A DNA stretch of 64,000 bases from a virus. The stretch spans positions 1 to 64,000 of the IMG/VR virus record IMGVR_UViG_3300021138_000002; one strand, 5' to 3'. The first letter of the stretch is position 1. Every line of letters starts with the position of its first letter. Both the position numbers and the translations under genes were made by a program. This document shows, piece by piece, positions 9,859-63,798 of this stretch. The notes under the pieces are model-generated. The model searched no databases. It was not told the origin of the DNA and saw only the letters and a program-made list of their open reading frames with translations.

Positions 9859-10547
9859 TCAAACGTGCTTTAATTTTAGGATGCAGTCATGCTGCCGGAG
9901 CCGAGATGTACCGAGATCCTTCTATACAGGTTGAACATCCGGATTCGTTTGGTTATCTAAACAGCTACCCGGCATTGGTAGCACAGAAGTTGGGTTATGT
10001 TCCCTTGAACTACGCAATCAGTGGCGGTAGCAATGATGCCATGTTTAGAATATTCTGCGAGCAGATGGATCAGTTGACTGCTGATGACATTGTGATAGCC
10101 TGTTGGACCGGCATTGACCGAACAGAAATCTGGCACGAGCTTGATCGACGTTGGTTACCGTTGAGCATTGGACAACACGACTTTTGCCCAATACAACCAA
10201 GTGACTATGCCTTGTCGGGCTTGAATGTTGGAGGTAAAATTTCTTGTCACCAGGATTATGAACAGTACAGTCATCAATGGAGCAAGTATCATGTTGATTT
10301 GAAATCCAGTCAGCTAAACAAATTGAAAAATATAACAGCACTAAATGCCATGGCCAAAGATCGATCAATCCCGGTCATGAATATTGACAGCTTTTGGCCG
10401 GTCAAAAATAATTCCACCTGGGTTATCAACGAAACCTATTATGATTGGGCCACACGCAATAACTGTGTCAAGACTGCCAACGGTCATTATTTTCTAGACA
10501 CACATCAACGTTTTGCTGATCTGATTGTGTCTAGCTATAGACATTGA
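9855..10547 (+). CDS. SGNH/GDSL-type protein, copy 1 (230 aa)
   Basis: Block I is ILGCSHAAGAE (Ser10 region), block II/III is NYAISGGSNDAMFR, and a C-terminal D-x-H occurs in LDTHQRFADLIV. This order matches SGNH hydrolases and acyl/acetyl esterases of cell-surface sugars. The protein has no signal peptide, so it would act in the cytoplasm. Two further relatives are at 11948-12595 and 19798-20523. It overlaps the amidinotransferase stop by four bases and runs 17 bases into the convergent carbamoyltransferase gene. Activity is inferred from motifs only. Confidence 0.7.
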   Translation: MIKRALILGCSHAAGAEMYRDPSIQVEHPDSFGYLNSYPALVAQKLGYVPLNYAISGGSNDAMFRIFCEQMDQLTADDIVIACWTGIDRTEIWHELDRRWLPLSIGQHDFCPIQPSDYALSGLNVGGKISCHQDYEQYSHQWSKYHVDLKSSQLNKLKNITALNAMAKDRSIPVMNIDSFWPVKNNSTWVINETYYDWATRNNCVKTANGHYFLDTHQRFADLIVSSYRH

Positions 10548-11982
10548 CACCGTACAGTTGTTCAAATTGATCAGCGTCGGCTCGATCGTTTACCATGGGA
10601 CGGCCACGTATGTTCAGGCTGGTATTCAACAGCATAGGGCATCCGGTGGCCGCATACCAGGCTTCTAGCAAGCGTCTAAATCCCGAACCGTCAGCGGGTA
10701 CAGTCTGCACACGACTAGTCCCGTCATGATGTACGATAGCAGGATACAGGTCAGGATGCCGGCAACGACCGACTGTTTGCATGTACCTACTAGTATGCCA
10801 ATTGGCAGGCATATCAAAATACTCATGCACATGCTCTTCCAAAACAGCCGGGGCAAACGGTCTAAACTTTTGTCTACGTTTGATTTCATTGACTCGATCT
10901 TTTATATCTCTTCCTCGCGGGTCGGCAAGGAGACTGCGGTTTCCGAGTGCCCGCGGCCCAAACTCTGCCGCACCCGAGGCGACACCACAGAGTCCATTAG
11001 CCAAAAGGTCGTGGACAACGGCATCAACAGGATATTCTCCGGGAATGACTCGGCCCAGATAGGCATGATCAAATTGTATTTGTTTTCCATAGGCCAAAGC
11101 GGCCGCACCAAGGCTACTGCCAGCATCACCAGGACAAGGCATGATCCAAATTTTTTCAAAATATTCACCGAGTTTTCTATTAGCAAGACAATTTAGGGCA
11201 ACACCGCCCGAATAAACCAAATTTGTGCTCCAGCCAAATGCTCTGGCTCGGCGCATAATACTATATATCATCTCTTCACAAACTACCTGGGCACTTGCCG
11301 CTATATCTTGATCTCTGGCTCCGGGCAAGAATTCTGGATCCAGGCCGGCATGCAAATTGTCATAGGCTATGGCATGCAGTTGATTGCTGTAACAGGCCTG
11401 TCCATAGGCAACCATGCCCATGGTTATGTATTCTTCTTCCATGGGTCGTAAGCCTACACGATCGGTCACAGCACTGTAAAACAATCCTATACTTTGTGGA
11501 TACCATTGACGCCACAGTCGTTTGTACTGAGCCTGTCCGTTGCAGTATTCGACCGACCAGATGGTGGCAGTGTCCCATTCACCAATGGCATCTATTACCA
11601 CCACTGTGGCCCGATCAAACGGTGATGTCTGAAAGCCACCAGCCGCATGACTGAGATGGTGATTGTGTACCGTGACAGGTACTCCGGGAAAATGACCTTT
11701 CAGTTGATGTCGTAGTATCTGACCTGCTGTGAGTTTTGACCATTCTAGTCCTTGTCCTGAGTAAAGCTGTCGCAGTTGTTTTTTCCAAGGTGTTTCATAG
11801 TAGGCTATGTGATCGATGTGCCGATCTTGGGACAAATCCCAGATAAGGTCATTGTGTATGTCCGGATCATTTTTAATTTTGCTGTAGCGTTCACTGTGTC
11901 CGGCAAACGCAACTTTGCCTGAACCGTCGATCACGGCCACAGCCGCATCATGAAAACCAGCTGAAATTCCTAATATATTCAT
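10531..11982 (-). CDS. NodU/CmcH/TobZ-type O-carbamoyltransferase
   Basis: A 483-residue enzyme. The N-terminal Kae1/YrdC-like half carries NILGISAGFHDAAVAV (H11), SERYSK and the metal-binding HHLSHA (108-113). The C-terminal half has GGVALNCLANRK, CPGDAGSSLGAAALAYG and PRALGNRSLLADPRG. The family moves a carbamoyl group from carbamoyl phosphate, via carbamoyl-AMP, onto a hydroxyl of a sugar or antibiotic. I choose ATG 11982 over TTG 11997 because the family starts MxILGIS. It is the last gene of the minus-strand block and overlaps its upstream neighbour by 35 bases. Confidence 0.93.
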   Translation of the reverse strand: MNILGISAGFHDAAVAVIDGSGKVAFAGHSERYSKIKNDPDIHNDLIWDLSQDRHIDHIAYYETPWKKQLRQLYSGQGLEWSKLTAGQILRHQLKGHFPGVPVTVHNHHLSHAAGGFQTSPFDRATVVVIDAIGEWDTATIWSVEYCNGQAQYKRLWRQWYPQSIGLFYSAVTDRVGLRPMEEEYITMGMVAYGQACYSNQLHAIAYDNLHAGLDPEFLPGARDQDIAASAQVVCEEMIYSIMRRARAFGWSTNLVYSGGVALNCLANRKLGEYFEKIWIMPCPGDAGSSLGAAALAYGKQIQFDHAYLGRVIPGEYPVDAVVHDLLANGLCGVASGAAEFGPRALGNRSLLADPRGRDIKDRVNEIKRRQKFRPFAPAVLEEHVHEYFDMPANWHTSRYMQTVGRCRHPDLYPAIVHHDGTSRVQTVPADGSGFRRLLEAWYAATGCPMLLNTSLNIRGRPMVNDRADADQFEQLYGVNVYS

Positions 11983-12595
11983 AAATTTTGTTTGCAATTA
12001 TTTCGTGTCCTTGTTCCAACGGATGATGATTGGGTCCTATAGGGACACCTTCGCACCAGTTGCATATTCCGGCCTTTTGCCAATCTAGATAGTATTTGGT
12101 ATCTATATGCGATATTAAATCTTGATTGTTTGTTGCTGGAAATTCTGTATTGTATGAGGCTGTTTGGCACATTATGTATTTTTGATTGTTTGCTTGAAAA
12201 AAATTTTGTAGTAGTATTATGTTTCTCAACCAAGCTCTATAACTCCATACATCCATTTGATTGGTATGATTGATCGTGAGTATTTTTGTTATCGTTTTTC
12301 GTTCTTGTAGTGCCAAATGATCGGTATTTTGACCTGGCCATGCATCAAATATTCCGTAAGGATCGCAAAATTCTATTCTGGCAAAGTTTGGCCAGGCAAC
12401 GACAATTAGTTCGGCATCGTTGGCGTAAACACAATCCATGCTGCGTTTGACCACTCTATTGGTGCCAGAGCCAGATCTTCCTAGATTGATCATAGGTCGA
12501 TCCAACAGTTGGCCCAACAATACCGGCCAGGCTGACTGTGTAGGATCTGTCAATTCGTCACCGTAGGTAAAACTATCGCCGATGCAATAAATCAT
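11948..12595 (-). CDS. SGNH/GDSL-type protein, copy 2 (215 aa)
   Basis: Block I is IGDSFTYGDEL at residues 5-15 with the likely nucleophile Ser8. A Gly/Asn block follows (NLGRSGSGTNRVV), then strand LIVVAW. The C-terminus holds HHPLEQGHEIIANKI with the usual His. These are the three landmarks of SGNH hydrolases. There is no signal sequence. The ATG overlaps the stop of the 33-residue gene (ATGA). A sugar esterase or acetyltransferase-like role in the same pathway is inference. Confidence 0.72.
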   Translation of the reverse strand: MIYCIGDSFTYGDELTDPTQSAWPVLLGQLLDRPMINLGRSGSGTNRVVKRSMDCVYANDAELIVVAWPNFARIEFCDPYGIFDAWPGQNTDHLALQERKTITKILTINHTNQMDVWSYRAWLRNIILLQNFFQANNQKYIMCQTASYNTEFPATNNQDLISHIDTKYYLDWQKAGICNWCEGVPIGPNHHPLEQGHEIIANKIYEYIRNFSWFS

Positions 12596-12693
12596 TTGTA
12601 TATAAAAGGGTCTCTTTTACGCAGTTCTTTGAGTTTTTTACGATAGCGTATTTCCAATCTAATACGATCAATTATGTGTTTAATCCATTTCAT
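12592..12693 (-). CDS. Hidden 33-residue basic protein
   Basis: This frame joins two larger genes with ATGA overlaps on both sides: its ATG (12693-12691) overlaps the stop of the 360-residue gene, and its TGA (12594-12592) overlaps the ATG at 12595. The product begins MKWIKHIIDRIRLEIRYRKK and ends DPFIYK. It is a strongly basic, amphipathic helix, too short for common gene callers. The exact fit argues that it is translated. It could be a small accessory or membrane-associated peptide, or a peptide substrate of the radical SAM enzymes; the sequence does not decide. Confidence 0.75.
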   Translation of the reverse strand: MKWIKHIIDRIRLEIRYRKKLKELRKRDPFIYK

Positions 12694-13772
12694 GTTTTTG
12701 ATCCTTGTGTTGAGTAATCGTATCCGGGTTTCATTATGTCAATTTGTTGCTGATAATAATCAGGATCGGTCCAGGTATAATCATAAGTTGCCGTGATATC
12801 TCCGGCTGTGATCTGATATATATCCAGATGTTGAGAAAGTACAGGCCAAATCTGTTGATAATCATCGGTTCCAAAACTTTCTTTCAATTGTACCTGTCCC
12901 ACAGGATGATATCCAAAATTGTATTCCGGGTCAGTGGGGTCAAAACCATTGCGTTCTATCCAGGCCCTAAACCCAATCATGCGATCGGTGTGCCAAGGAT
13001 ATAGTCCACCGTGGGTGACATCTCGTGCCCATTCGATATCAAATTCACCGCTGTAATAACGCAAATGTGTAATGGCATCGCACGTGGTTTGATCTATATC
13101 GGCACCGTTCTCATCAACGTAAACTTCGTAAAGCGTCTTTCCTATTTGAGTCCAGTGCAGGTATACTCCACCAAAAACTCGATCGTATCTGGTTTCGTCA
13201 AATGTTGTTTTGTATTCGGTTGGAAACTCAATTCTTGGTGCGTTCAGGAATGTAGTAATCTGAGTGGGGCGTACCCACTCAGGCTGTCGTGCCTGCTTGC
13301 GTTGACTTAGCATGAGACTTTCTGCTTCGTGACAGAGATTGTTTAATTGTCTAATTGCAAATTTTGTTTGATAATCTGCACGACGGTAATAGTCACTCAA
13401 TTGCCAGACAGTTCCTTGCAGATGTTCAAAATGATTGTGCAAAAGATTCATGGTTGCCTGATTAGGGTCAAGCGTAACAGGATCACGCAGTAGATCAGGC
13501 GTGTACGTTTCTACAATATGATATCGGTCTTGGAAAAAACCGTTAATTTGGTTTCGTGCCCATGTCAGTTCTTGACAAATAAAATCTAGATTTCTTGCAC
13601 TATCTGGGAATCCCAAAAAACAAAAATTCTTTTCCAGATACTGATTGCGCCTTACCAGATCCTGCAATGCCAGATACCATCGACGGGCCATTGGATCGTC
13701 ATAGACTGCAATAGTGTAGTCGATAAGATCTTTTCTATCTAACGGATTGCGTAGCACTACTTTAACATTCAA
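12690..13772 (-). CDS. Unknown protein in radical SAM operon (360 aa)
   Basis: I do not recognise this family. The N-terminal half is helical (MARRWYLALQDLVRRNQYLEKN, AIRQLNNLCHEAESLML). The C-terminal half is rich in aromatic and acidic residues (FGGVYLHWTQIGKTLYEVYVDENG, GFDPTDPEYNFGYHPVGQVQ). There is no signal or transmembrane segment. The frame begins with TTG at 13772 behind GGAATCAAA; an in-frame GTG is at 13757. It lies just downstream of a radical SAM gene, so it could be its partner, carrier or substrate. Confidence 0.7.
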   Translation of the reverse strand: MNVKVVLRNPLDRKDLIDYTIAVYDDPMARRWYLALQDLVRRNQYLEKNFCFLGFPDSARNLDFICQELTWARNQINGFFQDRYHIVETYTPDLLRDPVTLDPNQATMNLLHNHFEHLQGTVWQLSDYYRRADYQTKFAIRQLNNLCHEAESLMLSQRKQARQPEWVRPTQITTFLNAPRIEFPTEYKTTFDETRYDRVFGGVYLHWTQIGKTLYEVYVDENGADIDQTTCDAITHLRYYSGEFDIEWARDVTHGGLYPWHTDRMIGFRAWIERNGFDPTDPEYNFGYHPVGQVQLKESFGTDDYQQIWPVLSQHLDIYQITAGDITATYDYTWTDPDYYQQQIDIMKPGYDYSTQGSKT

Positions 13773-15060
13773 TTTGATTCCACCATTCTAGTACGGCAGG
13801 TCGTTCTGCCAAGATATTATTCATAGTATACTGGTCTTTTCGTATTTGTTCAAGTTGCAATATTCTCTTTTTGCCTCGTATCAATCCAGTCCGATAGGTG
13901 TCGGGCCACTGTTCTTCAAAGGTCTGCCGAGATTGCAATTGAACAAGAACTGCTCGCATGGCCCCTGTGGTAGTTGGTATTAACTCTGCTAACCAAGGTG
14001 CCAACAGTGATCTGGGCAGTGCCAAGGGACTCATGACTATATCGGGTGAAAATGAAAATATCACCTTGGCCAACACATCAACTCCCAACTGTTGTGCCAA
14101 TTGTGTGATTGATCCGACTTCAAACATGCCGGGCAAGGTCAGGGTAAAATCTATTCGCATCTGTCTTGAGTGTCGGGCGACGGCAACTCCTTGTTGGAAG
14201 TTTTCAAGCCATGCCTTGTAGTCCAATCCGGTGCGTATGTATTCGCCAATCCTTCCTGTTCCATCAAGGCTTGCACAGATCTGCCAGTCTCGTAGCCCAG
14301 ATAAAATATCTTGATACAGATTCCTACCGCCATAGCTGACACGGCTAAGATTAGTATTATATCTAGCATAAACATGTGGTCCATCTCCTAGTTCAATTAT
14401 TCTGGCCATGTAGCGCCAGTGCTGTTCATACATGAGTGGCTCACCACCTACCCAGTATATTTCTTCTACCCTGTGTTCTTCTACTGCTTGGGCAAATTCT
14501 GCTTCGATCTGTTGATCTTGGAATTGTGTAATTTGTGCTTTTATTTCTGGAATCATCCAATTATTTTTACTATTAGACCAGTCAATCATGTTGTGCTGTC
14601 GTTGCTCGCTTTCCCAGGCACTCGACAACATGTCACCACACATACGACATTTGAAGTTGCAGAGATTGCTGAATCTATAGTCCCAAGACACCGGTTTCAT
14701 AGTGGTATATCCATCAGCATCTGTGGTCGTGGCAATCTGATTTCGTTTGTGACCAAACAGTTGGTTGAAATAGCTACGGTACACGTCGGTGTTGAGCAAT
14801 TGATTGTTACATACCTCGCACTCGGGCAAGATTTCTCCGGCCATCATTCGACGACGCACCGATCGCATGTGTTCGCTGTTCCAATGTTCGTCCAAAGTGA
14901 TAGGATGATATCGCCCACTTCCGGACGCGGTGTCTATGTATTGTTCAAAGTTTTGAGCAGGCTCTCGACTGGCACAACACATCCTGCGTTCGGTTTGCGG
15001 ACTGAGATAGGTGTGTGTCCAGGGTGCCATGCACAAGGTTTGAGAGTTATCCATTGACAT
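13762..15060 (-). CDS. Radical SAM enzyme with N-terminal twitch-type Fe-S region, type A
   Basis: A protein of 432 residues. The radical SAM cluster motif is CNFKCRMC (C134, C138, C141), and GGEP at 205-208 is the SAM-binding loop. Ahead of it lies a second cysteine set typical of an auxiliary cluster: C10 in CMAPW, the pair C28-C29 and C81-x-x-C84. The family would reductively cleave S-adenosylmethionine to start a radical reaction; its substrate is unknown. It overlaps its neighbours by 14 and 11 bases. Three close relatives of type A are at 16002, 17207 and 55939. Confidence 0.9.
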   Translation of the reverse strand: MSMDNSQTLCMAPWTHTYLSPQTERRMCCASREPAQNFEQYIDTASGSGRYHPITLDEHWNSEHMRSVRRRMMAGEILPECEVCNNQLLNTDVYRSYFNQLFGHKRNQIATTTDADGYTTMKPVSWDYRFSNLCNFKCRMCGDMLSSAWESEQRQHNMIDWSNSKNNWMIPEIKAQITQFQDQQIEAEFAQAVEEHRVEEIYWVGGEPLMYEQHWRYMARIIELGDGPHVYARYNTNLSRVSYGGRNLYQDILSGLRDWQICASLDGTGRIGEYIRTGLDYKAWLENFQQGVAVARHSRQMRIDFTLTLPGMFEVGSITQLAQQLGVDVLAKVIFSFSPDIVMSPLALPRSLLAPWLAELIPTTTGAMRAVLVQLQSRQTFEEQWPDTYRTGLIRGKKRILQLEQIRKDQYTMNNILAERPAVLEWWNQIEC

Positions 15061-16009
15061 AGTTTAACAGTGGTTGTATTATTTCGGTATTGACTCGTTG
15101 GCCCACCAATGTTTTATCAAAAAATCTTTGATAATTATGCTCAATTTTGTCAAGGGTCAAAGTATCGTAGGGTTGCCGCACAAAGTTTTTTACATTGTCT
15201 ATTATTTTGGCCAATTTTGAATCGGGTCGAGTTGTGTCACTGTTGTCAATTTGGTCATAACTTTCGTCAAACAAGTTTTCAAAAGTTTCAAATCCCAACG
15301 AATGTAAATGCGACAAAGTATTTGTTTGCCCGTAGACCATAAATGGATGACGATAACACAATGGCTTCATTGTTTTTTCGGTAACAAAAGGGCAAGGTCC
15401 TGAATATCGGTCTATGCCAAATCGATCATATTCCAATACCGGCACATGATCCGTCCAGGTTTCGACCACCAAACTAAAATGCGTGTCGTTGTACCAAGAT
15501 AGATCGGTATAACGATCCCAGTCTCCGGCATTTTTTTGATCATTGGGCAGGTAGATACCGTCGATGGTATAGCTGTATATGCAGTCGTCTAAATAAGGTT
15601 CCATCGCTTGGTACAATTTTGTTTTGTGGGTTTTGACATTGCCGATGGGCATTAGTGCTAGTTTTTTATAGGTTTTGACAGGTGTATATTTGTGGTTGCT
15701 TCGATCAAGCAGGCAGTCTTCGTACCAGAACCAATTGACATTGTTCAATATGTAATGTTTGTCAAGTGCAGGAACATATCTTTTATAAAGATTGAGCGGC
15801 TCATGTAAATTATCAACTACAAAACGAAACCCATCGTGGTACAGTGCTTGCCACCAATTGTCTTGATCGTACAAGCTGACCAATACCAAACTGTGATTGA
15901 TATCATAGTTGCTGGTCGGATCATAGGCTACCAAGTCAAATTCTTTCTTCAGCACAGTATAAAGAATATACTCCACGAGAGATTTTACAATTATAGTTGG
16001 TTTATTCAT
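15047..16009 (-). CDS. TEK/DESYD glycosyltransferase-like protein, copy 2 (320 aa)
   Basis: Near residue 220 it has VTEKTMKPLCYRHPFMVYG, then HSLGFETFENLFDESYDQID, the same signature as the proteins at 7727 and 20520. An upstream HFSLVVETWTDHVP matches the YFSLVTETVFTYPYSFRTEK of copy 3. I choose ATG 16009; a TTG at 16015 is in frame but weaker. GT-B-type sugar transfer is inferred from the EK-KP donor-site pattern. It sits between two radical SAM genes and overlaps both. Confidence 0.65.
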   Translation of the reverse strand: MNKPTIIVKSLVEYILYTVLKKEFDLVAYDPTSNYDINHSLVLVSLYDQDNWWQALYHDGFRFVVDNLHEPLNLYKRYVPALDKHYILNNVNWFWYEDCLLDRSNHKYTPVKTYKKLALMPIGNVKTHKTKLYQAMEPYLDDCIYSYTIDGIYLPNDQKNAGDWDRYTDLSWYNDTHFSLVVETWTDHVPVLEYDRFGIDRYSGPCPFVTEKTMKPLCYRHPFMVYGQTNTLSHLHSLGFETFENLFDESYDQIDNSDTTRPDSKLAKIIDNVKNFVRQPYDTLTLDKIEHNYQRFFDKTLVGQRVNTEIIQPLLNYVNG

Positions 16010-17210
16010 AATCAATCAACTTGGCCAATTCGGGTTGTATTTGCGAAAGATTTTGGTTGCGTTTGCGATCAAGGTCACGCACCCGCATTCGCAATATGTT
16101 TCCGTCTAAACTCACACCACGATTCATAAAATATATGATTTGAGCAAATTCTTGTTGGGTAATTGTGTTGACCTGAGCCGATTGTAATTTTTCAGTGATC
16201 GCCTGCTTGGCCGTGTCTGGCAAGGTACTGATACTGAAGTAATAGGCCTCGTGCATCATGTTCCAATACACAAAATCAAAATCCTGTGTATCAATCCAGC
16301 GGGCCACGTCCTCAAGATAGTACACGTTAAAAACGTTCACAGTGGTGCACACCTGTAGTCGTATGTTGCGGAAACGTCTACGCATTTCTTGAAATTTCTT
16401 TATGTTGTCACACACTTCACTCCATACAGCATTTGATCTTTGATACTCAAATCTGGCACCTACATCGTCTATGCTGAATGCTATTTCCACGGTCTTGAAA
16501 TGGCGCCAAATTTCTTCGCCTTGTTCGGGCCATTGGGTGCCATTGGTATTGTAGTGTATCTCAATATTGCCGGCGATGCCTCGATCGATCAGATCATACA
16601 GTAGATCAAAGTGCTCCTGTATCATGAATGGTTCGCCGCCGGTAAATTCTATATAGCGTATTTGATCCGACACCTGATCCAGTTCGGTCCAAAATGTAGG
16701 GTTTTCTCTAGGCCATGCTCCTTGCCTGAGCATTTGGTAATGATGGTTTGATCGGCGATCTTCTCCAGGAGAGAGATTGGCCAGTTCTTCGGTGGCAAAT
16801 GTGCTCGAGCTCCAAGATCCACAAATACGACATTTCAAGTTACAGATATTGCCCAATTTCAAATCTAAAAACATCAAGGGTCGAGCGTCTTGTGTCCAAG
16901 GTTGATCAGGTATCATGTGCTTGAGACGATTGAGTGTGTGCATGCGTTTACTGACCCGACCGGCTGATTCTTCTCTCCAGCATTTTCTACAGGCTTGTGG
17001 TTGCTTCTGATCCAAAAACTGTTGTCTAAGATCTTGCATGTACCGACTGCTTTGTATGTCGGCAAAATTGGCCCTGTTCAAATCAAATTTGTTGCCGGCA
17101 TCGTCTACGATTTCTTCTTCGGCCAAACAACAGGGTCTCACAGTACCAATTGGACTGGTTTCCAAGCTGACCCAAGGCAATACACAAAATTTGTCGTGTG
17201 GTATTTTCAT
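16002..17210 (-). CDS. Radical SAM enzyme with N-terminal twitch-type Fe-S region, type A
   Basis: A protein of 402 residues. The auxiliary cysteines are C9 (CVLPW), C27-C28 (PCC) and C74-x-x-C77 (CRKC). The radical SAM motif is CNLKCRIC (C123, C127, C130), and GGEP is at 191-194. Later segments include HYNTNGTQWP and VEIAFSIDDVGARFEYQR, the usual barrel strands. The ATG overlaps the upstream stop (ATGA). No C-terminal SPASM cysteines are seen, so the auxiliary cluster is N-terminal. The substrate is unknown; the glycosyltransferase-like neighbour suggests a glycan or glycoconjugate. Confidence 0.9.
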   Translation of the reverse strand: MKIPHDKFCVLPWVSLETSPIGTVRPCCLAEEEIVDDAGNKFDLNRANFADIQSSRYMQDLRQQFLDQKQPQACRKCWREESAGRVSKRMHTLNRLKHMIPDQPWTQDARPLMFLDLKLGNICNLKCRICGSWSSSTFATEELANLSPGEDRRSNHHYQMLRQGAWPRENPTFWTELDQVSDQIRYIEFTGGEPFMIQEHFDLLYDLIDRGIAGNIEIHYNTNGTQWPEQGEEIWRHFKTVEIAFSIDDVGARFEYQRSNAVWSEVCDNIKKFQEMRRRFRNIRLQVCTTVNVFNVYYLEDVARWIDTQDFDFVYWNMMHEAYYFSISTLPDTAKQAITEKLQSAQVNTITQQEFAQIIYFMNRGVSLDGNILRMRVRDLDRKRNQNLSQIQPELAKLIDYE

Positions 17211-54938: not shown

Positions 54939-54970
54939 AAGAAAATAAACCACCCACTTAATGATCGAGG

Positions 54971-54998: not shown

Positions 54999-55023
54999 AA
55001 ATACACTTTCCAGGAGACCATTA

Positions 55024-55923: not shown

Positions 55924-55927
55924 CTGT

Positions 55928-55935
55928 TATAAATC
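55928..55935 (+). promoter_or_regulatory. Late-type promoter TATAAATC
   Basis: TATAAATC (7/8 to TATAAATA) lies just after the gene 55 stop, three bases before the ATG at 55939 if the downstream TTG is part of the leader. It could drive the radical SAM gene that follows. Confidence 0.4.
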
Positions 55936-55938
55936 TTG

Positions 55939-57453
55939 ATGCTATCGTCTGAGTTATATCAACATCTGGGAAAAACATACAACATTGTGTGTTTTGTAGA
56001 TCTGGCCGAGATTGTCGGATCCAAAAGTGCAATATTCAAACTATTTGATGATTACCACAAAGATACATATGATCCAAACGATCGATTGGTATTGTACTCT
56101 GGTCATTATCTGTCGTCGGAATTGTTAGAACATGTTCAAAAAGCAGCTTCGATTGTTGATATCAGCAACAGTTTTATTTTGATTTGTTGTCCTTATGATG
56201 TTGGTAGTACGCTAATAACCATTGGGGGAAAGTATGGAGCCGACATACCAATTCAAAACAGTGTGATCGATATCGATTCAGAAGAGTTGTTGACCAACGA
56301 CTTTTATGTCGCTGATACTGTTTGTCCGGTGGTATGGAGTCATTTAGTAATAACAAATCAAGGAAATATTCATCCGTGTTGTATACAAACCGACGTGGTC
56401 GGAAATGTGATTGACCATCAGGTAATCGATGTATTCTACAATGATAAGATGCAGAATTTAAGGCACGATCTTTTAGATGGCATACAGGCACCGGGTTGCG
56501 ATCAATGCTGGAAAACAGAAAAAGAAGGAAGCATCCTCAGTTACAGACAACGACATTTGAATGCACATTCAAAAGATTTTTATACCAATTGGATTGACGA
56601 TCCAAAAATTCTCAGTCTTGATTTGAATGCTGGTAATGTGTGTAATTTTAAATGCAGAATATGTAACACTGTAAAAAGTTCTTTGCATGCCGACGAACAG
56701 CTGAAACATACCAACGATCCATCCAGAATTATACAAATAAAAAATAACACAGCAAAAGGCAAATGGGCCGACACTGAACTGTTTTCTTTGCAATTGGAAT
56801 CGCTATTGCCTCAATTGACCAATTTGGATTTGTACGGTGGAGAACCATTTTTGCTAAAACAATTGCCGAGAATACTACAAACAGCAATTGACCTCGATGT
56901 TGCAAAAAATATTCGATTGCATTTTAATTCTAACGGCTCTATATTTCCAGAAAAATTGATTCCGTTATTTGAACAGTTCAGAGAAGTAGACATTGCTTTG
57001 AGTATAGACAATGTAGGTAAAAGATTTGAACTAGAGCGTGGTGGCAACTGGACGGAAATTGAAAAAAATATCACTGAATTTATGTCCCTACAAAAGCACA
57101 ATTTCCGCACATATCTATTTCCTACCATCAACATTCAAAATGTACTTTATGTTGATGAATTGATAGATTGGGCTAACCAAACAGGAATCAAGGCAACCTA
57201 CAACCTGCTGAGTAATCCGTGGTATTTTAATATTGAACACATGACTGAATCTGCCAAACAATTGGTAATTGATCGATTTAGCAACAGAGACCATTTGATA
57301 TTAAAAACCATTATTAACTATATTCAAAATGGTAAAGGTAGCGATGGCACTGAGTTTGTCCGTCATATGAAAAAATACGACAACATACGCCAGGAAGATT
57401 TTCTTTTGACTCACAACGAGATTGCAATAGCCATGGGGTATGTGTTACACTAA
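55939..57453 (+). CDS. Radical SAM enzyme, type A, with N-terminal extension
   Basis: A protein of 504 residues; I take ATG 55939 rather than TTG 55936. About 125 residues of extra N-terminus (LGKTYNIVCFVDLAEIVGSK) precede C129 in CPVVW, C147-C148 in HPCC and C187-x-x-C190 in CDQCWKTEKEG. The radical SAM motif is CNFKCRIC (C235, C239, C242), with GGEP at 300-303. A large part is close in pattern to the protein at 16002-17210 (HFNSNGSIFP, VDIALSIDNVGKRFE). The gene is AT-rich compared with its neighbours, a sign of separate origin. Confidence 0.88.
   Translation: MLSSELYQHLGKTYNIVCFVDLAEIVGSKSAIFKLFDDYHKDTYDPNDRLVLYSGHYLSSELLEHVQKAASIVDISNSFILICCPYDVGSTLITIGGKYGADIPIQNSVIDIDSEELLTNDFYVADTVCPVVWSHLVITNQGNIHPCCIQTDVVGNVIDHQVIDVFYNDKMQNLRHDLLDGIQAPGCDQCWKTEKEGSILSYRQRHLNAHSKDFYTNWIDDPKILSLDLNAGNVCNFKCRICNTVKSSLHADEQLKHTNDPSRIIQIKNNTAKGKWADTELFSLQLESLLPQLTNLDLYGGEPFLLKQLPRILQTAIDLDVAKNIRLHFNSNGSIFPEKLIPLFEQFREVDIALSIDNVGKRFELERGGNWTEIEKNITEFMSLQKHNFRTYLFPTINIQNVLYVDELIDWANQTGIKATYNLLSNPWYFNIEHMTESAKQLVIDRFSNRDHLILKTIINYIQNGKGSDGTEFVRHMKKYDNIRQEDFLLTHNEIAIAMGYVLH
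57422..57451 (+). promoter_or_regulatory. Sigma70-type promoter TTGCAA-N18-TACACT of gene 47
   Basis: TTGCAA is also the -35 box of the promoter at 2309-2337. TACACT ends seven bases before the ATG at 57459. The promoter lies inside the end of the previous coding region. It leaves no room for a ribosome site. Confidence 0.45.
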
Positions 57454-57458
57454 CACTT

Positions 57459-58472
57459 ATGAATCTATTTAAAAAAGTAGCAGTTTGTACCGATATTCAT
57501 TTTGGATTAAAGTCAAACAGTCTGGTGCACAACCAGGACTGTTCGGATTTTATTGACTGGTTTATCAAAACGGCCAAGGACAACGGTTGTGAGACCGGCA
57601 TGTTCTTGGGAGATTGGAGTCATCAACGATCGGCCATCAACATGCAGACCTTGCAGTACAGTCTACGTAGCCTGGAAAAACTGTCGGCGGCCTTTGATCG
57701 TTTTTATTTTATTCCCGGCAATCACGATTTATACTATCGCGACAAGCGAGATATCTACAGCACCGAGTGGGCAAGGCACATTCCTAATATACAGATTGTC
57801 AACGACTTTTTCAAAGATGGCGATGTGATTATTGCTCCATGGTTGGTGGGCGACGATTATAAAAAGCTAGCCAAAATGAGTGCCCGGTACATGTTTGGAC
57901 ATTTTGAGCTTCCGCACTTTAAAATGAATGCCATGGTAGAAATGCCCGATCACGGTGAGTTACGAGTGGATGATTTTACCGGAATCGAAAGTGTGTACTC
58001 CGGACATTTCCACTTGCGTCAAAAGAAAAAGAATATTAACTATATCGGCAACTGTTTCCCACACAACTTTGCCGATGCCGGCGATGCCAATCGTGGTATG
58101 TTGGTCAAAGAATGGGGCAAAGAGGATCAATACTTCAGTTGGCCCGGGCAACCGTTATATCGTGTGATGAAACTGAGCGAGGCCATTGACAACGGTGCCA
58201 ATCTGTTGCAACCCAACATGCATGTGCGTGTGGAACTGGACATTGATATCAGCTACGAAGAAGCCAGTTTTATCAAAGACACCTTTGTTCGAGACCACAA
58301 GCTCAGAGAAATGAGCTTGATACCAGTCAAGAGTACCGCAGTAGATGCTGACATGGCGCCAGGTGAGATCCGCTTTGAAAGCGTGGATCAGATTGTAACT
58401 GATCAGTTGACCAATATTGAAAGCGAGTTTTACGACTCCAAATTGCTGTTAAAAATATATCAAAATTTATAA
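57459..58472 (+). CDS. gp47: Recombination endonuclease subunit gp47 (Mre11/SbcD-like)
   Basis: A 337-residue calcineurin-type phosphodiesterase of the usual gp47 length. Motifs are DIH (D12, H14), GDW (D52), GNHD (87-90), GHFE (H148) and GHFH (H183, H185), the complete metal site of Mre11 enzymes. With gp46 it processes double-strand ends for recombination-dependent replication. It is followed by a radical SAM gene and only then by gene 46. The stop and the next ATG share one base (TAATG). Confidence 0.95.
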   Translation: MNLFKKVAVCTDIHFGLKSNSLVHNQDCSDFIDWFIKTAKDNGCETGMFLGDWSHQRSAINMQTLQYSLRSLEKLSAAFDRFYFIPGNHDLYYRDKRDIYSTEWARHIPNIQIVNDFFKDGDVIIAPWLVGDDYKKLAKMSARYMFGHFELPHFKMNAMVEMPDHGELRVDDFTGIESVYSGHFHLRQKKKNINYIGNCFPHNFADAGDANRGMLVKEWGKEDQYFSWPGQPLYRVMKLSEAIDNGANLLQPNMHVRVELDIDISYEEASFIKDTFVRDHKLREMSLIPVKSTAVDADMAPGEIRFESVDQIVTDQLTNIESEFYDSKLLLKIYQNL

Positions 58473-59764
58473 TGTCAGATCGCTCGATTTTTCCTATCAA
58501 ATCCGAATCTGCCTGTCAATTAAAATGGGCATGGAGCTCTGTGTTTTTTAATAGCGGAAGTACATCTAGTTGTCATCGCACGCAAAAATATCCTATCGAT
58601 CCTGAACATTTTGATCAGTTCCATAACACTCCGGACAAAATCACAGCTAGACAAAAAATGCAACAAGGTCAATGGCCCGGTGCAGGATGTGAATACTGTC
58701 GCAATGTTGAGGAAGCCGGAGGAATCAGTGATCGACAGAGCAACTTAAACAATGCATCTCTGATCCCACCAGAGTTAATAAATGATTCTACTGCTACGTC
58801 AATCACTCCGACCATAATAGAGGCCTATTTTAAAAATACCTGTAACATGGCATGCGTGTATTGCGGTCCACATTTTAGTAGTCAATGGGAAGATGAAAAT
58901 CGTCGATTTGGATCAGATTTTTCTTCTGGAAAAGCGTTTGATGTTAGAGCTCCACAAAATAATTCCAATTATGATCAAATGGTTTCTGATTTTTGGAAGT
59001 ATCTTGAAAACGAAAATAGATATCAAGTGTTGCAACGCTATCATGTCTTGGGCGGAGAACCTTTTTTAATAAAAGAACTAGATGACAGCATAGAGTTTTG
59101 GCGTACTCACCCCAATCCAGATTTAACTTTTAGTATTATTACCAATTTAAATATCCCCACTCCACGCTTTGAAAAATACATCAAACAGTTCGAAAAGTTG
59201 GTGTTGGGCAACAAAATATGGAAACTGCAACTCACAGCCAGTCTAGATTGCTGGGGTGCAGAACAAGAATACGTCAGATACGGGCTTGATCTAGAAACTT
59301 GGCAACAAAATTTTGAATTGGTGCTGAATCGACCCTGGATCAGTGTAAGTATCAACAGTGTTATATCTGCCTTGACTATTAAAACCATGCCGAAACTGTT
59401 GGAAAAAATCAACGAATGGAATACTCGACAAACTGCTGTGATACGCGGACGAGAGCGTGAGCGTAGAGCCGAACCCATCTTGCATAGTTTCAATACCACC
59501 AACAACTGGGTCGATGATCCGCATGCGTTTGGCAGTTATTTTTCTGATGACATGACAAAAATTTTGTCGCTAATGCCCAACAACTCCGAAGATCAGCAAC
59601 GGCAAAAAAATGCAATGTCCGGTATCGCAAAAAGATTATCCACCGGTGTGCCAAACCGTTTGCAGATATCCAATCTCAAACAATACCTAGATCAACTGGA
59701 CCGACGTCGCTCGACCAATTGGCGAACTCATTTTTCTTGGCTTGATCAAGACTTCAGTGTATAA
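58472..59764 (+). CDS. Radical SAM enzyme, type B, between genes 47 and 46
   Basis: A 430-residue protein. Auxiliary cysteines are C15 (CQLKW), C34 (SCHRTQKYPID) and C73-x-x-C76 (CEYCRNVEE). FHNTPDKITARQKMQQGQWP matches the LHNTP segment of the other type-B proteins. The radical SAM motif is CNMACVYC (C124, C128, C131), with GGEP at 194-197. It overlaps gene 47 by one base and ends nine bases before gene 46, where TATAAT overlaps its stop. No role in recombination is evident. Confidence 0.9.
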   Translation: MSDRSIFPIKSESACQLKWAWSSVFFNSGSTSSCHRTQKYPIDPEHFDQFHNTPDKITARQKMQQGQWPGAGCEYCRNVEEAGGISDRQSNLNNASLIPPELINDSTATSITPTIIEAYFKNTCNMACVYCGPHFSSQWEDENRRFGSDFSSGKAFDVRAPQNNSNYDQMVSDFWKYLENENRYQVLQRYHVLGGEPFLIKELDDSIEFWRTHPNPDLTFSIITNLNIPTPRFEKYIKQFEKLVLGNKIWKLQLTASLDCWGAEQEYVRYGLDLETWQQNFELVLNRPWISVSINSVISALTIKTMPKLLEKINEWNTRQTAVIRGRERERRAEPILHSFNTTNNWVDDPHAFGSYFSDDMTKILSLMPNNSEDQQRQKNAMSGIAKRLSTGVPNRLQISNLKQYLDQLDRRRSTNWRTHFSWLDQDFSV

Positions 59765-59765
59765 T
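59737..59765 (+). promoter_or_regulatory. Sigma70-type promoter TTGGCT-N17-TATAAT of gene 46
   Basis: A perfect -10 TATAAT (59760-59765) overlaps the TAA of the radical SAM gene. TTGGCT (59737-59742) is 17 bases upstream. The ATG is eight bases after the -10, so transcripts would begin next to the start codon. Confidence 0.5.
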
Positions 59766-59773
59766 ACTACTAT

Positions 59774-61537
59774 ATGATACAGATAAAAAATCTTACAGTT
59801 CGTAATTTCATGAGTGTGGGTAACGCCACCCAGGGTATTGATTTTGATCGACGCGACCTCACTTTGGTGTTGGGCGAAAACCTAGACCTCGGCGGAGACG
59901 GCAGTCGTAACGGCACTGGTAAGACCACAATCATCAATGCTCTCAGCTATGCCCTGTACGGACAAGCACTCAGCAACATACGCAAAGACAATCTAGTCAA
60001 CAAGACCAACGGCAAAAACATGTTGGTCAGTCTAGATTTTGTAGTAGGATCCCAACAGTACCGAATTGAACGCGGTCGCAAACCCAATGTGTTGCGATTC
60101 TTTGTTGATAGTCAAGAACAAACAGCCACGGACAATGCACAAGGTGATTCAAGAGAAACCCAGGAAGCTATAGAACAAACCTTGGGTCTCAGCCACGACA
60201 TGTTCAAACATATCTTGGCCTTAAACACCTATACTGAACCGTTTCTCAGCCTCAAGGCCAACGATCAGCGTACCATCATTGAACAACTGTTGGGCATCAC
60301 CATGCTGAGTGAACGTGCGGACAGGATCAAAGAACTGAACCGACAGACCAAGGACTCAATCACACAAGAAGAATTCCGCATCCGTGCAGTACAAGATGCC
60401 AATAAGCGTATTGAAGAACAGATTGAAAACCTAAAACGCAGACAGAGATTATGGGCAGAAAAACATGAATCAGATATCACGGAACTTGAGACCGCACAGG
60501 CAGCGTTACAAGATATTGACATCGAAGCGGAAATCCAGGCCCATCAGGAACACAAAGTTTGGGATCAGCGTAGAAAAGACCTCAACGATCTATCTAGCCA
60601 GATCAGTCGGACGAAGCTGGACCGCGATCGCGAAACAAAAACGATTTCCAAACTATCTAAGGAAATCGAGACACTGGCGAACCATGAGTGCCATACATGT
60701 GGACAACCCTTCCACGACAATAAGCACCAACTTGTTATGGAAACAAAACAGGCTGAATTGGCAACGGCTAGAACGGCAAGCCAAGAACATTCCCAACTGT
60801 TATCAGACTTGGAGGCTGCCTTCGCGGCCCTGGGCCCGCTAGGACGACCACCCAAAATGTTCTACGACAACGAGTCAGATGCCATACAACATCAGGCCAC
60901 CCTGGCCGGTCTGGCACAACAGATTGCCGCTAAACGAATTGAAACAGATCCGTACACCGAACAGATTGAGGAAATGCAGGCACAGGCCTTGCAGACTGTG
61001 AGTTATGACGAACTGAATGCACTTACTAGATTGCAAGAACATCAAGAATTCCTGCTCAAACTGTTGACCAACAAAGATTCATTTATCCGTAAAAAAATCA
61101 TCGAACAGAATTTAAGTTACTTGAACGCTAGACTGACCTACTATCTGGATCGCATTGGCCTGCCACACACTGTGGTGTTCCAAAACGATCTCACTGTCAG
61201 CATCGAAGAGCTGGGACGAGAATTGGATTTTGATAATTTGAGTCGAGGTGAGCGTAATCGTTTAATCCTCAGCATGAGCTGGGCCTTTCGAGACGTGTTC
61301 GAAAGTTTATATCAACCGATCAATGTGCTGTTTATTGATGAAATGATTGACTCGGGTCTGGACACGCAGGGTGTGGAAAATGCCTTGGCCTTGTTGAAAC
61401 AGATGAGCCGCGAACGTCACAAGAGCATATGGTTGGTCAGTCATAGAGACGAGCTTGCTGGTCGTGTGGAAAATATCCTGCGTGTGGTCAAAGAAAACGG
61501 CTACACCAATTACAGCACAGACGTGGAACATGTTTAA
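59774..61537 (+). CDS. gp46: Recombination endonuclease subunit gp46 (Rad50/SbcC-like)
   Basis: A 587-residue SMC-type ATPase. Walker A is GSRNGTGKTT (43-52). The coiled coil holds a zinc hook CHTCGQ (C306, C309). The signature is SRGER (490-494), and Walker B is VLFIDEMIDSGLD (D522, E523). It works with gp47 in end resection. Several long helices flank the hook, as expected. The gene overlaps the next radical SAM gene by eight bases. Confidence 0.95.
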   Translation: MIQIKNLTVRNFMSVGNATQGIDFDRRDLTLVLGENLDLGGDGSRNGTGKTTIINALSYALYGQALSNIRKDNLVNKTNGKNMLVSLDFVVGSQQYRIERGRKPNVLRFFVDSQEQTATDNAQGDSRETQEAIEQTLGLSHDMFKHILALNTYTEPFLSLKANDQRTIIEQLLGITMLSERADRIKELNRQTKDSITQEEFRIRAVQDANKRIEEQIENLKRRQRLWAEKHESDITELETAQAALQDIDIEAEIQAHQEHKVWDQRRKDLNDLSSQISRTKLDRDRETKTISKLSKEIETLANHECHTCGQPFHDNKHQLVMETKQAELATARTASQEHSQLLSDLEAAFAALGPLGRPPKMFYDNESDAIQHQATLAGLAQQIAAKRIETDPYTEQIEEMQAQALQTVSYDELNALTRLQEHQEFLLKLLTNKDSFIRKKIIEQNLSYLNARLTYYLDRIGLPHTVVFQNDLTVSIEELGRELDFDNLSRGERNRLILSMSWAFRDVFESLYQPINVLFIDEMIDSGLDTQGVENALALLKQMSRERHKSIWLVSHRDELAGRVENILRVVKENGYTNYSTDVEHV

Positions 61538-62498
61538 TTACAAAACTGTACATGTGGAAGTCAGTAGCAAATGCGTGCTCAAATGCCCGCGATGCCCAAG
61601 AACCGAACTGGATCTGGATCGGCTGAATCAGGAAATGTCTTTGCAAGAATTTAAATCGGGCTTTCCAGTTGACACCTTGAACAAAATCGAGCATTTTATA
61701 TTCTGTGGCGACATAGGAGATCCAATCTATGCCACAGAGTTTTTAGAAATCGTCGAGTATATCAAACATCACAGTCGCAGTCGCATAAGAATAGTGACCA
61801 ATGGAAGTTATAAAAAATCCTCCTGGTGGCAACAACTGGGTGCATTGCTGGATCACAACGATCGCGTCACGTTCAGTGTTGACGGATGGGACGATCAATC
61901 CAACAACCAGTACAGGGTCAACAGCAATTTTGAAAGTATTCTGACTGGAATTCGCTCGTTGCGAAGCTCCAGCGACTGTTTGATCCAGTGGTCAACGATA
62001 TATTTTTCTTTCAATCAAGACAACATTGACCGTATAAGAAATTTGTCTAGATCTTTGGGTTGTGATCAGTTTCAAACTGTCAAAAGCTCAAAATTCAACG
62101 GCAGGTACGTACACAACAACACAGATTTGCTGAGACCAGCCGACGAGTTGGTAGCCGAGACAGCCGTGTACGAAACCACCACAGAATCATTCAATCAAAC
62201 TAAGTATGTGTCTATTGTGCCCGAGATCAGCCCAACGCCGCATACATGGGCCAAATGTTTGAATTATAAAAAAGATTTATTTGTTGGAATTGACGGGCTG
62301 GTGTCTCCGTGTCCGTGGTTCAACAACGGGTACCAAGACAATCGTTTTGTAAAACAGCATCGCGATCGGTTGTTGATTAAAAATCGATCGTTTTTTGACA
62401 TAATCGACGATGCCGAACTATGGTCACAGTTGATGCAAAGTTTTGAAACTGACCCTTTGGAAATTTGTTTAATAAAGTGTAAAAATGGCCAACAGTGA
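61530..62498 (+). CDS. Radical SAM enzyme with C-terminal SPASM/twitch-like cysteines
   Basis: A frame open from 61455 lies inside gene 46; the real start is ATG 61530. The 322-residue product has the radical SAM motif near its N-terminus (CVLKCPRC: C15, C19, C22). A C-terminal set follows (C243, C261 in SPCPW, C313, C317 in CLIKC), as in SPASM/twitch enzymes. IRIVTNGSYKK and VTFSVDGWDDQ are typical barrel strands. It lacks the N-terminal cysteine region of the other eight and so is a third type. It overlaps the next gene by 14 bases. Confidence 0.88.
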   Translation: MFNYKTVHVEVSSKCVLKCPRCPRTELDLDRLNQEMSLQEFKSGFPVDTLNKIEHFIFCGDIGDPIYATEFLEIVEYIKHHSRSRIRIVTNGSYKKSSWWQQLGALLDHNDRVTFSVDGWDDQSNNQYRVNSNFESILTGIRSLRSSSDCLIQWSTIYFSFNQDNIDRIRNLSRSLGCDQFQTVKSSKFNGRYVHNNTDLLRPADELVAETAVYETTTESFNQTKYVSIVPEISPTPHTWAKCLNYKKDLFVGIDGLVSPCPWFNNGYQDNRFVKQHRDRLLIKNRSFFDIIDDAELWSQLMQSFETDPLEICLIKCKNGQQ

Positions 62499-63798
62499 TA
62501 TTTTTTGTAACATTCCCTGGTTCGAATTGAACATCAATCATGATGGCAGTTATGATCTTTGCGGATGCCAAAACGACAAAATAGTAGGCACCGAACTAGG
62601 AAAAATATACAATATCAAAAAAATACCAATCGCCGATTATTGGAACAGCGAGCGATTGCGACAGGCACGACTTCGCAAGTTGGGTGATACACCGGATCCC
62701 ATGTGTCGTATGTGTCAGCAAAAAGAACAGGTTGGATACAGTAGCAATCGCATAAAAGAAAATCATAAATCTGTTATTTTTAAAGAATCCTTTGAACGCA
62801 GTTTTTTGCAGAGCCCAAATTACAAACATTTTGAATACAGTCAACAGAATCAAGGGTTTACTACCAGTCACGTACACAGCCTGCATGTGAATCTAGGTGA
62901 TGTTTGCAATTTCGCCTGTCGCATGTGCAACCCATTTGCCAGCAGTCGTCTCCAAGACGAGTATAAAAAATTACAATGGGTTGACTCAAATACTGTTTTT
63001 GAACACTGGACCGACAACGACACAGCCTGGTGCAATTTTTTAACTTTCTTGGATGCCCAGGTTGCCAATATCAAGGTATTACACATCATAGGCGGTGAGG
63101 TCGAATTCATGCCTAAATTTTTATTTTTGATTGATTATTTTATTCAAGCCGGAGTGGCACCCACAGTCAACATCAGTTTCACATCAAACGGCAGCATCGA
63201 TTACTCGAAATATTTTGAAAAATTATCCAAGTTTAAAAGATGCGAAATTGGAATCAGCATAGAAAGTGTTGACCCCATTGGGAACTACATCAGGCAAGGA
63301 GGAAACATTGTTGATATTTTAAAAAATATCCAAGACATGAACAACCGTAGGCCCAACAACACACAATTTGTCATACGAACTGTGCCCAGTATTCTGAGCT
63401 TGCCTTTTTATGCCAACTTGATCAAATGGGCCCTGGATACAAAAATACCCATTGACAACAGTCTGTTGGTTCAACCCAACTGGCTCCAAGCCGTGCTATT
63501 GCCAGATCATATCAAAAAAACCATTGTTGATTCAGTATCAACTGTGTTGGAAAGTTTGCCCAAAGACGGTCATGAATTCAACAATCAAAAAGATCCAACC
63601 AGGATCGATACCAGCATACGCAACGAATGCGAAAGCATTATTAAATTGGCACAGGAACCTGTGCCCGTTGATGCCGACCTGTTAAGAAAAAAATGTGCTG
63701 AAAAATTAAATCAATGGGATCAATACAAGAACATCAGCATCAAGACCTATTCGATCGACCTTTACAATTTTTTATCGGAGTTTGGATATGATGCGTGA
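62485..63798 (+). CDS. Radical SAM enzyme with N-terminal Fe-S region, type A variant
   Basis: A protein of 437 residues. The auxiliary set is C8 (CNIPW), C26 and C28 in DLCGC and C74-x-x-C77 (CRMC). The radical SAM motif is CNFACRMC (C141, C145, C148). The SAM-loop is GGEV (203-206), not GGEP as in the others. FTSNGSIDY and CEIGISIESVDPIGNYIR are barrel strands shared with relatives. It follows the C-terminal-cluster type by overlap, so the two may act in series. Confidence 0.85.
   Translation: MANSDIFCNIPWFELNINHDGSYDLCGCQNDKIVGTELGKIYNIKKIPIADYWNSERLRQARLRKLGDTPDPMCRMCQQKEQVGYSSNRIKENHKSVIFKESFERSFLQSPNYKHFEYSQQNQGFTTSHVHSLHVNLGDVCNFACRMCNPFASSRLQDEYKKLQWVDSNTVFEHWTDNDTAWCNFLTFLDAQVANIKVLHIIGGEVEFMPKFLFLIDYFIQAGVAPTVNISFTSNGSIDYSKYFEKLSKFKRCEIGISIESVDPIGNYIRQGGNIVDILKNIQDMNNRRPNNTQFVIRTVPSILSLPFYANLIKWALDTKIPIDNSLLVQPNWLQAVLLPDHIKKTIVDSVSTVLESLPKDGHEFNNQKDPTRIDTSIRNECESIIKLAQEPVPVDADLLRKKCAEKLNQWDQYKNISIKTYSIDLYNFLSEFGYDA

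Follow-up and report, generated by a model that had tools for sequence, protein, structure and literature searches.

A set of five radical SAM genes kept together in two phage lineages and mirrored in a bacterial gene array

We analysed a stretch of 64,000 bases of viral DNA (hereafter, the window), corresponding to bases 1–64,000 of the 145,096-b virus record IMGVR_UViG_3300021138_000002. A first-pass annotation had placed nine open reading frames (ORFs) for radical S-adenosylmethionine (SAM) proteins in it, and we confirmed both their positions and the presence of a complete CX3CX2C motif in all nine (9/9). Five of these ORFs, which we designate by their first coordinate, are on the minus strand and are central to this work. 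Our comparisons show that these five predicted radical SAM proteins, all from the N-terminal-twitch family (NF033640, N_Twi_rSAM), are kept together in two phage lineages and are mirrored in one bacterial array, and that a carbamoyltransferase is recurrent in their vicinity.

The five genes of this cassette are, in order, 21676..23091 (C-Y-H variant, 304.9 bits with NF033640), 18456..19961 (C-H-H variant, 299.2 bits; these limits are those of the longest ORF and the true start is probably at an internal ATG), 17207..18475 (377 bits), 16002..17210 (341 bits) and 13762..15060 (279.5 bits). IMG/VR contains 169 relatives of 17207, and the best 80 of them, with 70–79% identity, define a first lineage of 80 loci; a second lineage, with 63 loci, was found via contig L096. 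The two sets amount to 55 and 48 clusters, respectively, at 95% nucleotide identity. All five genes were found in 74 of the 80 first-lineage loci, on one strand and exactly in the order 21676-18456-17207-16002-13762, and in 54 of the 63 second-lineage loci, 52 of them with the last two genes swapped and two with the order of the first lineage. Virus records are fragments, and the incomplete loci from both lineages (15/15) stop at a contig end before the missing gene. In the first lineage, the five proteins show median identities of 66–74% (66–84% for the relatives of 21676, in 76 ORFs), while the products of the intervening genes 20520 and 15047 vary, with medians of 40% and 32%. The five genes are mostly contiguous in the second lineage, where the median identities to the proteins of the window are 40–57%. 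Across positions 10531–26218 all neighbouring longest ORFs overlap, except for a single 94-b gap, with overlaps that would be smaller if internal starts apply; tail-type genes precede them on the same strand.

Relatives of these proteins also occur in cellular genomes. A scan of 84,980 species genomes yielded 59 loci, many of them from Bdellovibrio-like bacteria and Bacteroidota according to the record titles. A contig from a Bacteriovoracaceae metagenome-assembled genome (MAG), L100, contains seven N_Twi genes in a row, beside genes that by eye are rsfS- and obgE-like. In a maximum-likelihood tree of 70 proteins (IQ-TREE, midpoint rooting for reading; supports given as ultrafast bootstrap/Shimodaira-Hasegawa-like approximate likelihood ratio test, SH-aLRT), every one of the five phage subtypes clusters with at least one gene from the L100 array: 13762 in a clade with five bacterial genes (100/99), 18456 with two L100 genes (100/99), 17207 with a member of the array (99/90), 16002 with L100:7992-9206 (100/79), their clade including 55936 of the window as well, and 21676 with L100:9643-11121 (77/99, weak by bootstrap). 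In a FastTree of 175 proteins, which sampled other phages only around the cassette, support was low for the 17207 group (2) and for 21676 (67). Short, duplicate and multi-domain proteins, as well as most near-identical phage loci, were dropped before building both trees. Because each of the five subtypes groups with a gene from a single array, the tree suggests that they are older than the split of these phage and bacterial copies. In another MAG, G032, NF033640 has 26 matches; seven of the genes share one stretch that comes after ATP-synthase-type genes, and four more are consecutive at a separate site (L154, L155, others). Several contigs deposited in bacterial or archaeal MAGs (L095-L099, L122, L127 and L131) look like phage contigs and carry parts of the cassette; they are probably mis-binned and were not counted as cellular.

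By the terms of the first-pass annotation, its proposal would fall if homologues of these enzymes never co-occurred. For the five minus-block genes this refuting condition does not hold, given their near-constant order in two phage lineages and the presence of relatives of all of them in one bacterial array. Since the set lacks a member only where the contig ends too early, and has a bacterial counterpart, the five presumably have a role that the phages can scarcely do without. We found no account of the five-gene unit, or of its bacterial counterpart, in the literature searched, which left out most subscription journals; both appear to be undescribed. The subfamily of the members and the kind of phage are already known. 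Likewise, we know of no characterised pathway with five distinct, always co-inherited radical SAM members.

The carbamoyltransferase gene of the window, 10531..11997 (minus strand), encodes an O-carbamoyltransferase of the NodU/TobZ type that exceeds the cut-offs of PF02543 (128 bits) and PF16861 (157 bits) and that matches TobZ, GdmN and the novobiocin carbamoyltransferase in the Protein Data Bank (PDB). Matches to it are present in 70/80 first-lineage and 51/63 second-lineage loci. Of 10 carbamoyltransferase copies counted across six bacterial genomes, 6 lie within 15 kb of a cluster of over-cut-off N_Twi genes, where 0.52 would be expected; this is a hand count, the expectation used hand-entered cluster numbers, and a 24-bit fragment in G032 was left out. 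Excluding G036, a genome picked in the knowledge that it had such a neighbour, the count is 5 of 9. In the L100 contig, a carbamoyltransferase gene is about 12 kb from the array, and the genes between them include, by eye, an SGNH hydrolase, a GT2 and a nucleotidyltransferase. We also examined 131 proteins, drawn at random from 176 encoded within three genes of a bacterial family member, and found PhyH (6), GDSL (6), carbamoyltransferase (3), GT2 (3) and DegT (2) domains. None of these is among the 25 families listed for a control of 126 proteins from 10 stretches of eight of the same genomes; the lists comprise the 25 commonest of 142 and 154 families, and absence from the control means not being among those listed. 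A family with an S-D-L-D-L motif, nucleotidyltransferase-like by eye, is encoded beside or near radical SAM family members in L100:12502-13464, L142:3658-4632 and L157:10352-11365; L142 and L157 also hold a carbamoyltransferase relative.

Eight of the nine radical SAM proteins exceed the curated cut-off (170) of the N-terminal twitch model NF033640, with 211–377 bits over nearly the full length of the model, and their E-values of 3e-62 to 1e-112 indicate that these matches are not due to chance. The title of this family names no reaction. The remaining protein, 61455..62498, scores only 34 bits with NF033640, failing its cut-off, and reaches 38.9 bits with the general radical SAM family PF04055 (cut-off 29.5). 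It resembles SPASM-type maturases, its best match being TIGR04317 (tungsten cofactor oxidoreductase radical SAM maturase) with 66.5 bits, well under the cut-off of 380 needed for that assignment; its extra cysteines are C-terminal by eye, as previously proposed, and there is an internal ATG near 61530. Using PF04055 as a check gave a mixed outcome, with 16002, 55936, 61455 and 62485 over the cut-off, four proteins under it and no listing for 18456, so that this cut-off alone would miss five of the nine. The core CX3CX2C motif was kept in 548 of 548 collected relatives, and alignment of 11 of the 13 members in the virus record revealed 17 invariant columns, which include the three core cysteines, the four N-terminal cysteines (C32, C50, C93 and C96) and a GGE motif. 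The three designs initially distinguished are better described as two, one of them subdivided, because types A and B are branches of one family. The proposed CH signature of type B is present in 18456 (CHH) and 58472 (CHR); 21676 has instead CYH, with a tyrosine that is kept by 76 of 76 close relatives.

Modelling and profiling, done for one subtype (17207), support the existence of a radical SAM barrel and of a twitch domain, two features that the first-pass annotation had named. An AlphaFold2 model of this protein (predicted local distance difference test, pLDDT, 92.6; predicted template modelling score, pTM, 0.90) shows the radical SAM core fold. Its best PDB rows, BlsE (Z 13.0), SuiB, anSME and DesII (Z 12.7), are tied, and share this core fold over 208–237 aligned residues with only 13–17% identity (Z 12.7–13.0). 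BlsE and DesII are sugar enzymes, and peptide enzymes score alike, so no function follows from the fold. A profile of the 17207 group (37 sequences) matches, over positions 14–85, residues 183–256 of BtrN (PDB 4m7t, 4m7s) with an E-value of 2e-7 and four cysteines in register. This C-terminal part of BtrN is its twitch domain; BtrN is a 2-deoxy-scyllo-inosamine dehydrogenase, an aminocyclitol enzyme. The profile match shows that the predicted N-terminal domain of the 17207 subtype is homologous to the C-terminal part of BtrN, and supports the prediction of an auxiliary-cluster domain at the N-terminus. The two differ in that the twitch-type domain is C-terminal in BtrN and N-terminal in the phage proteins; their cores match weakly in the same search.

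Besides the carbamoyltransferase, three further enzymes encoded in the window, all on the plus strand, could be firmly assigned to types that are compatible with sugar metabolism. Gene 8839..9858 encodes an amidinotransferase of the GATM/StrB1/SxtG type, with a match to arginine:glycine amidinotransferase (phmmer against PDB, E 4e-16) and further matches to inosamine-phosphate amidinotransferase and SxtG; it was found in 49 of the 80 first-lineage loci, with a median identity of 82%. The other two are a DegT/DnrJ/EryC1-type aminotransferase (4180..5274; PF01041, 188.7 bits) and an NAD-dependent epimerase/dehydratase (2574..3560; PF01370, 152.8 bits).

A number of window proteins had also been described as glycosyltransferase-like, which we could confirm for none of them using Pfam and NCBIfam, or using PDB for three families. 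Among those encoded on the minus strand, 23085..24011 is a conserved protein with an invariant D-G-D-N, located beside the five in both lineages (72/80 and 60/63 loci); a GT-A enzyme would be our guess, and it had no match in Pfam, NCBIfam, PHROGs, PDB or deposited phages. Three others are unconfirmed candidates. The sole family match of 24350..25129 (62/80 and 60/63 loci) was phrog_1903, for which no function is given, and its comparison with a GT8-positive protein from Vibrio phage K566 gave an hhalign E-value of 0.048 and a probability of 1%. Its neighbour 25110..25913, found in 59 of 63 second-lineage loci, matches phrog_1903 weakly. Gene 20520..21719, one of the variable genes lying between radical SAM genes, is present in 78 of 80 first-lineage loci, with the low median identity given above, and its product is similar to those of 7727 and 15047; none of 26 aligned relatives had a Pfam match. 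The second variable gene, 15047..16015, also an unconfirmed candidate, was found over more than 60% of its length in 27 of 80 loci, its median identity being calculated over all first-lineage hits, and has no Pfam match. A profile of the 20520/7727/15047 family retrieved five PDB rows, corresponding to nucleoporins and a packaging NTPase, with E-values of 0.017–0.087, which we took as chance. Pfam scans of 24 and 26 relatives of the candidate glycosyltransferases likewise returned nothing relevant.

The cassette and its surroundings contain other genes. The product of 12690..13772 (minus strand) is conserved in the first lineage (71/80 loci over more than 60% of its length), and 50 rows listed for its model (pLDDT 84.5, model range 1–325) were nearly all cyclophilins or cyclophilin-type chains, with middling Z scores of 7.8–8.5 over 126–141 aligned residues, suggesting a possible cyclophilin-like barrel with inserts. 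Positions 9855–10547, 11948–12595 and 19798–20523, in or beside the cassette, encode SGNH/GDSL-like or DUF6071-like proteins with weak Pfam matches (below cut-off for the GDSL/SGNH-like match of 11948); within the extent of the flanks, no more than 3, 6 and 3 of the 80 loci, respectively, gave a match, and the three are thus probably optional. Gene 26281..27186 (minus strand), which heads the cassette, encodes a protein with 32% Ser/Thr, found in 43 of 80 first-lineage and 35 of 63 second-lineage loci and with no match in deposited phages; as an acceptor for modification it is a speculative candidate. Upstream, 27328..28734 (minus strand) encodes a tail-fibre-type protein, as judged by eye and from a weak match to Peptidase_G2 (20.6 bits, cut-off 25), which is kept in 55 of 63 second-lineage loci. 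Further along, positions 29554–42660 contain one ORF of 4368 amino acids between genes that by eye are of the tail-fibre and baseplate types.

The common pathway of sugar tailoring first suggested for all nine enzymes is supported, without being proven, for the cassette five, on account of their co-occurrence and sugar-type neighbours; it is not supported for all nine, since the plus-strand genes are distant and scattered. We tentatively favour, at slightly short of an even chance, that the cassette directs the serial radical tailoring of a glycan or glycoconjugate by the five radical SAM enzymes. These enzymes would be different, probably not interchangeable, and share a single substrate, which they would modify one after another or at distinct sites. 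Each would form a 5'-deoxyadenosyl radical and then abstract a hydrogen from a sugar or sugar-linked substrate, with oxidation, epimerisation, deoxygenation or bond formation as possible outcomes. The carbamoyltransferase would add carbamoyl groups and, in the first lineage, the amidinotransferase and the aminotransferase could add guanidino and amino groups, respectively. Decoration of a glycan on the virion or on a surface would be its most likely outcome, because the cassette, with its overlapping genes, comes immediately after same-strand tail-type genes, and because several bacterial relatives are found among polysaccharide-type genes. The step from a radical SAM set lying beside sugar-type genes to an action on sugar is one that we infer from gene content. 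A bolder proposal, possible although we lean against it, is that the five old, non-interchangeable subfamilies make up one obligate line (a pentad) on a single glyco-substrate; this would be a chromosomal array of relatives of predatory bacteria that large phages captured whole, and would produce, on virions or cell surfaces, a sugar decoration with radical modifications for which no characterised system offers a precedent.

Several observations weigh against an action on glycans. The best structural matches of 17207 tie between sugar enzymes and peptide enzymes, the latter including SuiB, anSME and SkfB. The seven candidates 6121, 7727, 15047, 20520, 23085, 24350 and 25110 match no glycosyltransferase family in Pfam or NCBIfam, and PDB searches with profiles of 23085, of 24350 and of the 20520/7727/15047 family gave nothing credible. 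The second lineage lacks 20520 (0/63) and almost lacks 15047 (1/63), and we did not find relatives of 8839 or 12690 in the 10-kb flanks of its 63 loci. In bacteria, there are arrays with no adjoining glycan gene, such as L154, behind ATP-synthase-type genes, and L115, beside housekeeping-type genes (labels by eye), and ABC transporters are equally common beside the family (3) and in the control (3).

The strongest alternative is unlikely in our view: the five enzymes could modify a virion protein directly, for instance a tail-fibre-type or Ser/Thr-rich one, in the manner of maturases of ribosomally synthesised and post-translationally modified peptides (RiPPs) or of sulfatases, with the sugar enzymes decorating the same protein. 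It would agree with the position of the cassette after same-strand tail-type genes in both lineages, with the Ser/Thr content of 26281, with the presence of SuiB, anSME and SkfB among the best structural matches and with the location of pelagimyophage radical SAM cassettes within a host-recognition cluster (PMC7029224). However, apart from phage-like contigs, the bacterial loci showed no relative of the tail-type genes next to their radical SAM genes, and conservation of 26281 across the second lineage is poor (median 28%, 35/63 loci). A Ser/Thr-rich protein encoded beside the radical SAM genes of phage K566 is not detectably related to 26281 (hhalign E 0.82), so that a common family for the two is not supported. 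Moreover, the N-terminus of the phage enzymes is a twitch domain, so that no leader-peptide domain is evident.

It is improbable that no common pathway exists and that large phages have collected the radical SAM genes as passengers or for Fe-S-related metabolism. The plus-strand genes, scattered and variable, fit this idea, as does the published view of a phage with 12 radical SAM genes, explained by Fe-S cluster supply and use (PMC5332604). For the cassette, independent passengers would not be expected, because the order of the five is near constant in two lineages and relatives of all five are found in one bacterial array; the passenger explanation may apply to the plus-strand genes.

We regard it as similarly improbable that the pathway product is a soluble small molecule, resembling an aminoglycoside or a guanidino sugar, and not a decoration of a polymer or protein. 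The relationship of the amidinotransferase with StrB1-type and SxtG enzymes, the presence of DegT, epimerase and TobZ-type carbamoyltransferase genes, and the fact that BtrN is the closest PDB sequence to the N-terminal domain would all be in keeping with it. Yet the second lineage keeps the five without a relative of the amidinotransferase being found in its flanks, and Pfam scans of 20 proteins from the region pointed to no transporter and no resistance gene. Finally, hypermodification of phage DNA, suggested by a phage carbamoyltransferase of the same superfamily that acts on 5-hydroxymethylcytosine (PMC8670742), is very improbable, because a thymidylate-synthase-family hydroxymethylase (PF00303) was matched in none of 15 related records, five of them larger than 340 kb and all of them possibly incomplete, as against 9 of 14 control genomes, whereas in the contigs described in that paper such carbamoyltransferases co-occur with thymidylate-synthase-family genes, and those of unmodified contigs can adjoin glycosyltransferases.

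For NF033640, a subfamily to which no reaction is assigned, the surroundings of these genes hint at glycans carrying carbamoyl or guanidino groups.

The four plus-strand genes do not behave like the cassette. They are 55936..57453 (N-terminal twitch preceded by an additional segment; residues 127–495 score 269.7 bits with NF033640), 58472..59764 (C-H-R variant, 211 bits), 61455..62498 (the SPASM-like protein with C-terminal cysteines described above) and 62485..63798 (N-terminal twitch, 222.6 bits). They lie tens of kb from the cassette, between or after recombination-nuclease-like genes; of these, 57459 is weakly SbcD-like and 59774 is SbcC-like by eye. In 15 related records, all of which contain the five cassette genes (15/15), a full-length or nearly full-length relative of 62485 was found in five, with 28–33% identity, a relative of 58472 in four, with 40–47% identity, and a whole-length relative of 55936 in two, with 37 and 40% identity; other matches of these three queries were weaker and mostly to the cassette five. 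The protein encoded by 55936 has about 125 extra residues before its twitch domain, a part also present in its relative in 2 of the 15 records. Seven records contained from one (G004) to seven (G010) further over-cut-off members outside the cassette (own count). A single pathway for the nine enzymes is thus not supported, since only the five minus-strand genes hold together while close relatives of the three plus-strand genes searched (55936, 58472 and 62485) occur in few of the 15 records; the best explanation is that the plus-strand genes are separate, variable additions, with no link to the cassette found. Across window positions 55936–63798 and record positions 123685–140476, eight N-terminal-twitch genes (one below cut-off) appear singly among replication/recombination-type genes (by eye), like repeated insertions into a T4-like core.

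The virus itself belongs to a group rich in radical SAM genes. The nine ORFs first noticed underestimate its content, because the whole record holds 16 radical SAM genes, corresponding to 15 NF033640 matches (12 over cut-off) and 61455..62498. Two adjoining genes at record positions 105238–107141 (L011) are of another type (CNLTCHNC, CNIACKNC), over the cut-off of PF04055 and under that of NF033640. The major-capsid-type protein (record 74487–75683) shows 86–92% identity to those of the 18 of 30 related records that contain it, and 61–66% identity to its 15 best deposited matches, from phages of 284–469 kb that include Vibrio phage 2.275.O, Sinorhizobium phage Phosso and Pseudomonas phage PA5oct. 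These phages are T4-like. The 145,096-b record is probably a fragment, because related IMG/VR records reach 353 kb. Homing endonuclease-like ORFs (HNH, GIY-YIG; by eye) were seen at window positions 3514–4152 and at record positions 64290–64718, 115946–116635 and 128771–129544. The number of radical SAM genes had been called exceptional for a phage. This holds in comparison with deposited phages, since tblastn searches of 50,697 records retrieved only three with 16002, three with 17207 and two with 21676, and it does not hold within this lineage, where NF033640 matches numbered 5–17 in each of 30 related IMG/VR records (E ≤ 0.001) and PF04055 matches 8–19 in 14 of 14 records, including that of the window. 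A high count per phage is not new either: 12 radical SAM genes were reported for a 183-kb T4-like marine genome in 2017 (PMC5332604), and a 2020 paper described radical SAM cassettes within the host-recognition cluster of pelagimyophages (PMC7029224).

The first of these, TARA_ERS488813_N000010 (Nishimura et al. 2017, PMC5332604), is likened to our virus by description only, for its high count. Its authors explained the 12 genes by the supply and use of Fe-S clusters. The pelagimyophage cluster (PMC7029224) is an island of tail fibres, glycosyltransferases and radical SAM cassettes; it is hypervariable, unlike the cassette described here, in which the five radical SAM genes are constant and the intervening genes vary. 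A single-cell-derived sequence of 7,955 b, MH319727 (Marine virus AG-345-D19), encodes a carbamoyltransferase that is 52% identical to 10531, directly followed by a 16002-like radical SAM protein, and the cell from which it was sorted might name a host. Among deposited phages, Vibrio phage K566 has two genes that exceed the GT8 cut-off and that are interleaved with four related radical SAM genes; Vibrio phage K567 gave a tblastn hit only. One product of K566, VPHK566_0308 (L094:21445-22707), annotated as hypothetical, is related to the radical SAM proteins of the window; its matches to PF04055 and SPASM are below cut-offs, with the SPASM match at the N-terminus. The K566 radical SAM proteins are 20–25% identical to the twitch-type proteins of the window and cannot be assigned to any of the five, and no carbamoyltransferase is annotated in the stretch examined, in contrast to the cassette of the window, which has one. 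With these distant relatives in Vibrio phages K566 and K567, the cassette provides a defined enzyme set for asking what phages do with radical chemistry.

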